Shown one piece after another: positions 10,200 through 54,830 of a DNA stretch of 64,000 bases. Positions within the stretch are counted from its first letter, which is position 1. Each line of letters starts with the position of its first letter. Location of the stretch: the NCBI GenBank assembly GCA_938036315.1, contig CALHPK010000011.1:1-64000 (forward strand), given 5' to 3'. A model generated the notes under the pieces. That model worked only from the letters and a program-made list of their open reading frames with translations. It was not told the origin of the DNA and searched no databases. A program made the position numbers and the translations under genes. The DNA comes from an uncultured bacterium (GTDB taxonomy: Bacteria; Calescibacteriota; Calescibacteriia; Calescibacteriales; Calescibacteriaceae).

Positions 10200-10586
10200 C
10201 TATTTTCTTTGTATATTTGGGGGGTGATATTCCTCGCTATGTTTTGCCATAATAAACTTCGCTACGAAAATTTTCTTTTCCGCATCCCAGAAGCCCTCAA
10301 CAATTGTACCCTTAGCTTTTCCAAAGAGATCCGGGGGGATTCCTCTGAAAGTCACAGGGACAGAATACTCCCCGTCGGTGATTATGAAAAAGTGTTCTAG
10401 TCCATTGACCTGCAGTTCACTAACAAACCCACCCAACCTCAGTCTTTTTCCAGCGTATTTCTGATAATTTTCAAAAAATTCTTTTGGTGTGATGTAAAAA
10501 GAAATACTCTCTTTCATACCCGAGAATATAAGGTACGCAGAAATTACTGAAAATACAAGGAATATAATTGTAAACTTTTTCGCCAT
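10200..10586 (-). CDS. ccmE: Cytochrome c maturation protein CcmE
   Basis: N-terminal TM; RLGGFVSELQ...FIITDGEYSVPVTFRGIPPDLF...IVEGFWD; AKHSEEYHPP heme-handling His/Tyr motif. Confidence 0.87.
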   Translation of the reverse strand: MAKKFTIIFLVFSVISAYLIFSGMKESISFYITPKEFFENYQKYAGKRLRLGGFVSELQVNGLEHFFIITDGEYSVPVTFRGIPPDLFGKAKGTIVEGFWDAEKKIFVAKFIMAKHSEEYHPPNIQRK

Positions 10587-11864
10587 CTATTGTTTTATCA
10601 TTTCTATTTTAGTAATTATATCTGATATCTCTTGTATACCTGTTATTTTTAGTGACTTTTCGAAATTTTCCTTAGCTTCTCTGAAATTCTTTTCTCTAAA
10701 AAGCATCATCCCCTTTGAGAAACTTTCCTGAGCATCCCTTATATCCAGAACAGATTTTACTATACCCATGGTAAATCCAATCAAAAATCCTAAAGCCAAG
10801 GCAAAGCTTTGAATTCCTCTGATACTCAAAGACAATAAAGATGGCTTATCTTTTTTTCTTTTCGATCTCCTCTTCTCTTTTGTGTTTAAAGAAATTCCCC
10901 CCGTTGTGTTTAAAGAAATTCCCCCCGCCTTACCAGTTTTTTCGATATTCAACTTTGCCAACTCTCTTTCTTCAGATAATATCTTTTGCTCTTCTTCTTT
11001 TATCCTTTTGTGAAAAACATCTTTTATAAAGGCTGAAAAGTCATCCTGAAATATCGGCTTTATCCCTTTATTCCGAGAAAATTCTTTTATGCTTTCCGTA
11101 ATTTCTCCGATATCCGCATAACGCAGATTTGGAACTTTCGCAAGTGACTTTAGAACAATTTTATCTAATTCTGGGGGGACAAGCGGATTTATCTCCGATG
11201 GTGGTTGGATTTCAGAATTCAGAATTTTTTTCTTCACCTCCTCCCTGCTCTCTCCAGAGAAAAGCCTCTGTGATGTGAGCATTTCCCAAAAAAGAACCCC
11301 AACACACCATATATCTCCAAGCTGACTCCACCGACCCCCCGTAAGGATCTCAGGCGGAGTGTATCCCACCTTACCGAACGGATCAATTTCAGACCTTGTA
11401 GGGAGAGTTATCCCAAAATCTGTAAGCTTAACCCCACCTGTCCACGAAATCAATATATTTCTCGGATTTATGTCTCTGTGTACAAGAAATTTCCCTTCAA
11501 ATCTGTGTATGTACTCAACCGCACTCAGAATTTTCTCCGCAATAAAAAGAAAGATATCTATCTGAACCTCTTTTACAACTTCCATAAACTCCCTCAAATT
11601 CACTCCTCTTATATACTCCATTGCTAAGAAAAATTCATCCCCTACTCTCCCAAAATCTATTGTTTTGACAACATTTTCATGCTCGAACCTGGCTGAAATT
11701 TTAGCCTCGTTTATGAAAAATCTGAGATCCTTTTGAGACTTCAATATTTTTATGGCTATAATTTTCTTAAATCCTTCATGAGAAAACTTCCATGCTCTGA
11801 AAACTTTTCCCATTCCACCTTCACCAATTTCAGCAGTGAGTATATATTCACCAAAGGGTCTCAC
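10587..11864 (-). CDS. Serine/threonine protein kinase (Hanks type) with C-terminal TM and TPR-like tail
   Basis: GEGGMGKVFRAW, IAIKIL, HRDINPRNILIS, DFGITL. Confidence 0.93.
   Translation of the reverse strand: MRPFGEYILTAEIGEGGMGKVFRAWKFSHEGFKKIIAIKILKSQKDLRFFINEAKISARFEHENVVKTIDFGRVGDEFFLAMEYIRGVNLREFMEVVKEVQIDIFLFIAEKILSAVEYIHRFEGKFLVHRDINPRNILISWTGGVKLTDFGITLPTRSEIDPFGKVGYTPPEILTGGRWSQLGDIWCVGVLFWEMLTSQRLFSGESREEVKKKILNSEIQPPSEINPLVPPELDKIVLKSLAKVPNLRYADIGEITESIKEFSRNKGIKPIFQDDFSAFIKDVFHKRIKEEEQKILSEERELAKLNIEKTGKAGGISLNTTGGISLNTKEKRRSKRKKDKPSLLSLSIRGIQSFALALGFLIGFTMGIVKSVLDIRDAQESFSKGMMLFREKNFREAKENFEKSLKITGIQEISDIITKIEMIKQ
10880..10927. repeat. In-frame 24-bp tandem duplication in kinase gene
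   Basis: ttgtgtttaaagaaattccccccg repeated twice; encodes GGISLNTT/GGISLNTK. Confidence 0.95.
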
Positions 11865-11922
11865 ATTTGAAATTTTAAAATTTCAGAAGCCCCATATCTT
11901 TGATAGATCAGTTATTTATTTT

Positions 11923-30085: not shown

Positions 30086-30188
30086 CCCTATAATTACTAA
30101 AGCAAAAGTTAATACAATAAAAATAAAGGTAATGGCAATGAATAATAAATAAATAATAATAAAATTAAAATAAATAAATAAAAATAAA

Positions 30189-30923
30189 ATGCAAAGTAAA
30201 GAAGCCCGAATGGAAGAAAAGGAAAGCGAGATAAGTAGACTTGCTGAGGTTGGACTTATGACTCCATCAATAATACATGATATCAGGGGATACCTTGCAG
30301 TCATAAAAGCTTATGCTCAACTTGGTCTGAAGGACTTTGATCATGAAAGGATGCTGTCAAGATTTGGGAAAATAGTTCAAACAGTAAATTCAATTGAGGA
30401 GCTGATAGAAATTTTTAGAAGCTTTTACATAAAAGGAGAGGTTGTAAAGAGAGAAGTTAAAATTTCAGAAATTACTGAGGAAGCGTTATCAGTAAACTCT
30501 CCAAGATTAGGAGCGGTGACGCTTGTAAAAGATATTGAGGATTTTAGTTTGCAGGCGAATAAAATTCTGCTGAGGCAGGCAATTGCTAATCTCATTTCAA
30601 ATGCTCTGGACGCCGTTGAAAATTCCCAAGAAAAAATCATAGGTATAAAAACTCGGAAAAAAACAAATGAAGGATTCATATGGATATTTGATTCGGGAGA
30701 CGGGATCCCCCCTGAGATCGAAGAGAAAATTTTTTCTCCCTTCTTTACAACGAAAGAAAAAGGGACAGGACTCGGGTTACACATTGCAAAGAAAGTAATA
30801 GATGCTCACGGTGGCGAGATAAAAATCTGCAAGGATTTTCAGGAGAATTTTCCTAAAATAAATAGCAAAAACAGTAACATAATAAAGACAGCTTTTGAAA
30901 TAAAACTTCCTTTAAGGAGGTAA
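30189..30923 (+). CDS. Soluble histidine kinase
   Basis: LMTPSIIHDIRGYLAVIKAYAQLGL (H-box), ANLISNALDAVE (N-box), FDSGDGIPPE, FFTTKEKGTGLGLHIAKKVIDAHGG. Confidence 0.92.
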   Translation: MQSKEARMEEKESEISRLAEVGLMTPSIIHDIRGYLAVIKAYAQLGLKDFDHERMLSRFGKIVQTVNSIEELIEIFRSFYIKGEVVKREVKISEITEEALSVNSPRLGAVTLVKDIEDFSLQANKILLRQAIANLISNALDAVENSQEKIIGIKTRKKTNEGFIWIFDSGDGIPPEIEEKIFSPFFTTKEKGTGLGLHIAKKVIDAHGGEIKICKDFQENFPKINSKNSNIIKTAFEIKLPLRR

Positions 30924-30926
30924 TAT

Positions 30927-31382
30927 ATGAGCGACGACAAAATTCTTATAGTTGATGACGAGCCCGATGTCGCGGAAGTTCTCAATGAAATTTGCACTAT
31001 GGAAGGGTTCAAAACAGATTATGCAAAAACTGGGGAGGAAGGACTTTTGAAGCTCCAGAAAGATGATAATATAAAAGTGGTCTTGCTTGACAAAAACCTC
31101 CCTGGTATTTCAGGTCTTGAGTTTATAAAAAGGGCAAAAAATGATCTGAAGCACTTTGCACAGATAATTTTGGTCACAGGGTATCCATCTGCAGAAGCCT
31201 TCAGAGAAGCAATTAAATCAGGAGCATATACATGTATCACCAAACCGTTTGATGTTGATGAGATATCAAGAGTAATAAAAGATGCCCTAAAGCATTATGA
31301 AAGGGCAAAACAACTCAGACAAGTCGTAATAAGAGATGAAGAAAAAGCTCTAAAGGAGTCTCTTGCCAGACTAAAAAGCTAA
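30927..31382 (+). CDS. Response regulator (receiver domain, short C-terminal tail)
   Basis: ILIVDDEPDVAEVLNEI, VVLLDKNLPGISGLEFI, ILVTGYPSAEAFREAIKSGAYTCITKPFD. Confidence 0.95.
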   Translation: MSDDKILIVDDEPDVAEVLNEICTMEGFKTDYAKTGEEGLLKLQKDDNIKVVLLDKNLPGISGLEFIKRAKNDLKHFAQIILVTGYPSAEAFREAIKSGAYTCITKPFDVDEISRVIKDALKHYERAKQLRQVVIRDEEKALKESLARLKS

Positions 31383-53559: not shown

Positions 53560-54447
53560 GTGAAAAGGGCAATTGTCCTTTCAGGAGGCGGAGCACGAGG
53601 AGCTTATGAGGTTGGAGCACTAAAATACATATTCACAGAATTCAAAAAGGAATCAGGACTAAATCCGAAATTCGAAATACTCTGCGGAACAAGTATAGGA
53701 GCAATCCACACCGCATTCCTTTCCTCATACATGAAAGAAATTGAAAAAAATGTAAATCTCCTTGAAAAAATATGGCTGGGAGTAAAAATGGAAAACTTTA
53801 TGAGAATAAAAATCAAAAACATAGTTGACCTCATACTTCCCACTGTTAAGGGGAACAAGGGGCTTTTCACAGTAGACTACCTCAACAAAATAATCTCATA
53901 TGGTATAAATTGGCAAAATATAGATAGAAACATAATTGATGACACAATAGAAGCAGTTTGTATATTTGCTACCCAGATATCAACAGGAAAAACAACCGCT
54001 TTCATAAACACCAAAAAAATGATCTCTGAATGGAAAAAAGACCCATTTATGGATTTCTTACTAGTTTCATTACTACCAACGCATGTTCTAGCTTCGGCAG
54101 CAGTTCCTGTAATTTTCCCACCAGTAAATATCGATGGAAAGTGGTACTGTGACGGTGGAATAAGACTCAACACTCCACTGAGCCCCGCAATAAGACTAGG
54201 AGCAGATAAAATATTATCCATCGTCGTAAGATATTATGAACCACAGGAGCACCCAGAGAGAGAAAAAATCTACCCAAGCTTAGTCTATATACTCGGAAAA
54301 ATCCTTAACGCTCTTTTTCTCGACAGAGTTGCATATGAAGTATCAAGGCTTGAGATAGTGAACAGAATTGTAGAACTCATCTATCAAAAAGCTGGTCCTA
54401 CCAAATTCTCTGAAATAAGTAACGAAATGGCAGAATTCAGAGGATAA
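53560..54447 (+). CDS. Patatin-like phospholipase, ends at an in-frame TAA; apparent C-terminal domain continues to 54717
   Basis: VLSGGGARGAYEVGALKYIF oxyanion loop, GTSIGA nucleophile elbow, WYCDGGIRLNTPLSPAIRLGADKIL; GTG start. Confidence 0.9.
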   Translation: MKRAIVLSGGGARGAYEVGALKYIFTEFKKESGLNPKFEILCGTSIGAIHTAFLSSYMKEIEKNVNLLEKIWLGVKMENFMRIKIKNIVDLILPTVKGNKGLFTVDYLNKIISYGINWQNIDRNIIDDTIEAVCIFATQISTGKTTAFINTKKMISEWKKDPFMDFLLVSLLPTHVLASAAVPVIFPPVNIDGKWYCDGGIRLNTPLSPAIRLGADKILSIVVRYYEPQEHPEREKIYPSLVYILGKILNALFLDRVAYEVSRLEIVNRIVELIYQKAGPTKFSEISNEMAEFRG

Positions 54448-54830
54448 GCACTCAGAAAAGTTGACCTGCTGACAATTAGACCTTCACAAGATATAGGAAC
54501 GATAGCCTACGAATGTGGCAAAATCTATTCTAAAATACCACTGACAAAATCTCAAATCCTCATCAGAACTTTACTTGAACTATCTTCAGGAGTTGATACA
54601 GATCTTATCAGCTATATCTTATTTGAGCCAGAATTCACCAATGAATTGATCAAGCTCGGATATGAAGACGCCAAAAAACAATCCGAAGATCTCTACAAAT
54701 TCTTCTCCAAATCATAACAATTTCGAAGATACAACAGAACAATAGCTAAGGAGAAATAGCAAACAATCTTAATCACTTTGAAAATTTGAGTTTAATAAAA
54801 AACTGTATTATAAAATTAAAAAGCTGAGAA

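Follow-up and report, generated by a model that had tools for sequence, protein, structure and literature searches.

The patatin-like phospholipase gene at 53560-54717 on the forward strand of the window, the whole stretch of 64,000 nucleotides analyzed here, raises the question why its reading frame is interrupted by a TAA codon. The frame begins with a GTG start and comprises 295 codons up to the TAA at 54445-54447, another 89 codons and a second TAA at 54715-54717. A sequence-only reading of the locus had described the in-frame TAA and the 89 same-frame codons that follow it, which was confirmed by reading the frame. The nearest ATG, GTG or TTG 3′ of the premature TAA is located 66 codons downstream, consistent with the earlier statement that there is no start codon near the break. 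The gene is present as a single copy in the source genome (1.87 Mb in 32 contigs, about 85% complete), which belongs to an uncultured bacterium of the Calescibacterium family from hot springs. Its neighbors in the window are, as we take them to be from their sequences, gatB and a tRNA (guanine-N7)-methyltransferase-like gene. The window genes flanking it are not adjacent to the patatin gene in relatives, so that synteny was uninformative.

The N-terminal part (53560-54447, forward strand) carries the Patatin domain PF01734 at residues 5-211 (E = 3.6e-32). With a score of 112.5 bits, compared to a gathering score of 27.7, and a match to profile positions 1-191 of 191, the whole domain was found to lie before the TAA. 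The 295-codon part contains both catalytic motifs, GTSIG with the serine (S45) and DGG with the aspartate (D198), and the catalytic columns (S42 and D198 in L078 numbering) are near-invariant in the homolog alignment. Judged by its sequence, 53560-54717 is an ordinary patatin-like phospholipase gene with a predicted enzymatic activity. Taken by itself, the part after the TAA matches neither a Pfam nor an NCBIfam entry.

Next, the position of the stop was compared with four family-level relatives, Candidatus Calescibacterium nevadense, Candidatus Calescibacterium sp. SKYB43, bacterium HR19 and bacterium BF2.bins.44. The patatin gene was identified in all four and is continuous in each of them, with none broken. 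In the codon alignment, the codon matching the TAA at 54445-54447 is a tyrosine codon (TAT or TAC) in four out of four relatives. Scanning about 85,000 genomes of bacteria and archaea resulted in 65 loci, 62 of which were long enough to be judged. The sequence-only reading had proposed an alignment to homologs as a check of normal continuity and had named homologs ending at the TAA as contrary evidence; a sense codon was found in the matching column in 61 of the 62 judged homologs. The single exception is a patatin homolog from Binatia (L117:3379-4302), which ends about 90 residues early and close to a contig end, probably due to a frameshift or the edge of the assembly.

The orphaned C-terminal part (54448-54717, forward strand; 89 codons and the normal stop) shares 47-64% identity with the C-termini of the relatives. 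The tblastn E-value was 2e-35, determined within a small set of homologous loci, at an identity of at most 65%. Since these 89 codons match the relatives, the open stretch after the TAA is not a product of chance. The near-invariant motifs in this region are PSxD, DxxSYxxFD and GxxDA, and the residues P308, S309, D311, D348, S351, Y352, F355, D356, G367, D370 and A371 (L078 numbering) are conserved in at least 90% of the sequences. Hence the alignment presents the C-terminal part as a conserved feature of this patatin subfamily. In the homologs it belongs to one continuous protein, as the earlier assignment of the downstream part to the C-terminus of the same protein had supposed.

The intact protein of HR19, which has 384 residues, was modeled with AlphaFold2 at a mean pLDDT of 83.5 and a pTM of 0.87. 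Beyond the stop position, which corresponds to residue 296, the model shows a strand at 302-306 and several helices, with pLDDT values mostly between 70 and 97. Because the relatives and homologs are continuous with a sense codon, and because the part that is cut off is conserved and confidently modeled, the TAA is regarded as a single change specific to the source genome as assembled.

For an estimate of the age of the stop, branch lengths before and after it were compared. On the branch leading to the source genome, the part preceding the stop has 0.50 substitutions per site and the part following it 0.37, which is a coarse measure given 89 codons and fairly distant relatives. In the other lineages the two values differ in no consistent direction. 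The differences in the part after the stop are still concentrated at third codon positions. An old stop would be expected to leave drift in the orphaned part; no sign of such drift was seen, in line with the earlier observation that there is no decay. The result of this coarse test agrees with a stop that is very recent, or with an artefact.

A conserved and undecayed downstream frame would also be expected if the TAA were read through to give the full-length protein, an explanation that is considered improbable here. The stop occurs in none of the relatives; the conservation expected of a recoded gene is absent, with sense codons in the four family members and in 61 of the 62 homologs. Furthermore, no tRNA with a suppressor-type UUA anticodon was detected among the 44 recognizable tRNAs; as the genome is about 85% complete, an unseen one is possible. 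The RNA structure around the stop was no better than in shuffled sequences (z of −0.89 and 0.30), so that a structured readthrough signal was rejected. In addition, both release factors recognize UAA, and of the stops it is usually the one with the least leakage. Programmed readthrough therefore finds no support. That the TAA is real and an amino acid is inserted at UAA, so that some full-length phospholipase is made and the enzyme exists in two lengths, one short and one long, is rated slightly lower still. The tRNA-Ile(GAT) and tRNA-Ala(TGC) are not among the 44 tRNAs found in the source genome; both are often located within the rRNA operon, and the assembly may lack this operon.

Stop codon usage was determined in a sample of about 464 kb, consisting of the window and 400 kb from three other contigs. 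Among the 610 coding-scored open segments counted, some of them in a wrong frame, the stop is TAA in 276, TGA in 202 and TAG in 132. TAA is thus the commonest stop, which argues against readthrough as well as against a reassignment of TAA to an amino acid. Such a reassignment in the source organism, for which the tyrosine position of the TAA would speak, or a separate gene formed by the downstream part, is considered next to impossible. The source genome contains two release factor genes of the RF1/RF2 family, and genome-wide reassignment was rejected on the grounds of stop usage, release factors and tRNAs. Elsewhere in the window, TAA stands between a histidine-kinase-type ATPase domain and a response regulator that has an ATG of its own. 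In this normal same-frame pair (30174-31379, forward strand), the TAA and one codon precede the ATG. The separate gene was rejected since no start codon is near the break, and none of the homologs splits there.

In the 464 kb, no other clear case was identified of a frame that remains coding past a stop and has no start close by. Among nine segments forming five same-frame neighbor pairs in the window, each pair represents two different proteins or consecutive genes. The ten candidate nonsense breaks inspected by eye in the 400 kb of other contigs read as wrong-frame stretches, 3′ tails or neighboring genes. At 10203-11882 (reverse strand), a serine/threonine kinase gene ends in TAG and is directly followed by the ATG of a same-frame CcmE-domain gene; this arrangement resembles a broken fusion, but consists of two ordinary genes.

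Of the three options offered by the sequence-only reading, readthrough was thus not upheld by the codons of the relatives, the tRNA set or the RNA structure, whereas a recent nonsense mutation and a sequencing error both remain. The favored and probable explanation is a natural, recent nonsense mutation of a tyrosine codon to TAA in a single-copy patatin-like gene. That this case is the only one found in about 464 kb was counted in favor of an isolated nonsense change. A consensus or assembly error, in which the organism has a sense codon and the TAA is found only in the deposited sequence, or in which a minority strain allele entered the consensus, is a less likely but serious alternative. 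It would give the same sequence picture, which counts against the nonsense mutation, and it is likewise in line with the undecayed part after the stop, the single isolated case and the draft state of a genome in 32 contigs. The deposited patatin gene of C. nevadense (L004/L076) contains ambiguous bases, visible as X in the translation; consensus quality is therefore uneven in this group, which also speaks for an error. On the other hand, an error would have to be a substitution, a less usual type than a homopolymer indel, and other broken frames were not seen in the sample. The weighting of these two explanations is a judgement.

In the case of a nonsense mutation, a single-base substitution would have turned one tyrosine codon into TAA, and the undecayed state of the orphaned part would mean that this happened recently. 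The cell would then make a truncated protein of 295 residues, which keeps the catalytic serine-aspartate pair and lacks the conserved C-terminal 91 residues from the stop position onwards, including the predicted strand and five helices. Due to this loss the product is probably unstable or inactive, which we infer rather than assert, since both catalytic residues precede the stop. The patatin gene is found in every family genome examined, which speaks mildly against its dispensability and to this extent against a nonsense mutation.

Either an isolated nonsense change or an error in the consensus accounts for the TAA in the patatin gene, and a new decoding mechanism does not. Beyond annotation its significance is small: gene callers will give a truncated patatin and leave the C-terminal part unannotated. 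The locus illustrates cleanly how a sporadic nonsense change can be told from recoding by means of homologs, the tRNA set and the usage of stops.

The best solved-structure matches of the HR19 model are CapV-type and PlpD patatins, with an identity of about 16%. The CapV-type structures, cGAMP-activated phospholipases of CBASS systems (NF041079; PDB 8zr9, 9kh6), are the top matches of this intact relative and have the Patatin catalytic domain in common with it. An assignment as a CBASS effector was rejected, since the NF041079 score of 63.5 bits is far below the cut-off of 200; unlike in CBASS, no nucleotide cyclase was seen beside the patatin gene in the window. PlpD (PDB 5fqu, 5fya), the best PDB match by sequence profile (about 16% identity), shares the Patatin catalytic core, and the likeness noted is that of this core. 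The closest similarity is to a subfamily of uncharacterised PF01734 patatin-like phospholipases of about 385-420 residues from Calescibacterium, Myxococcota, Deltaproteobacteria and Binatia. The window gene shares with them the whole Patatin domain, the catalytic serine and aspartate motifs and the C-terminal motifs and, in contrast to them, is interrupted after residue 295 by a TAA.
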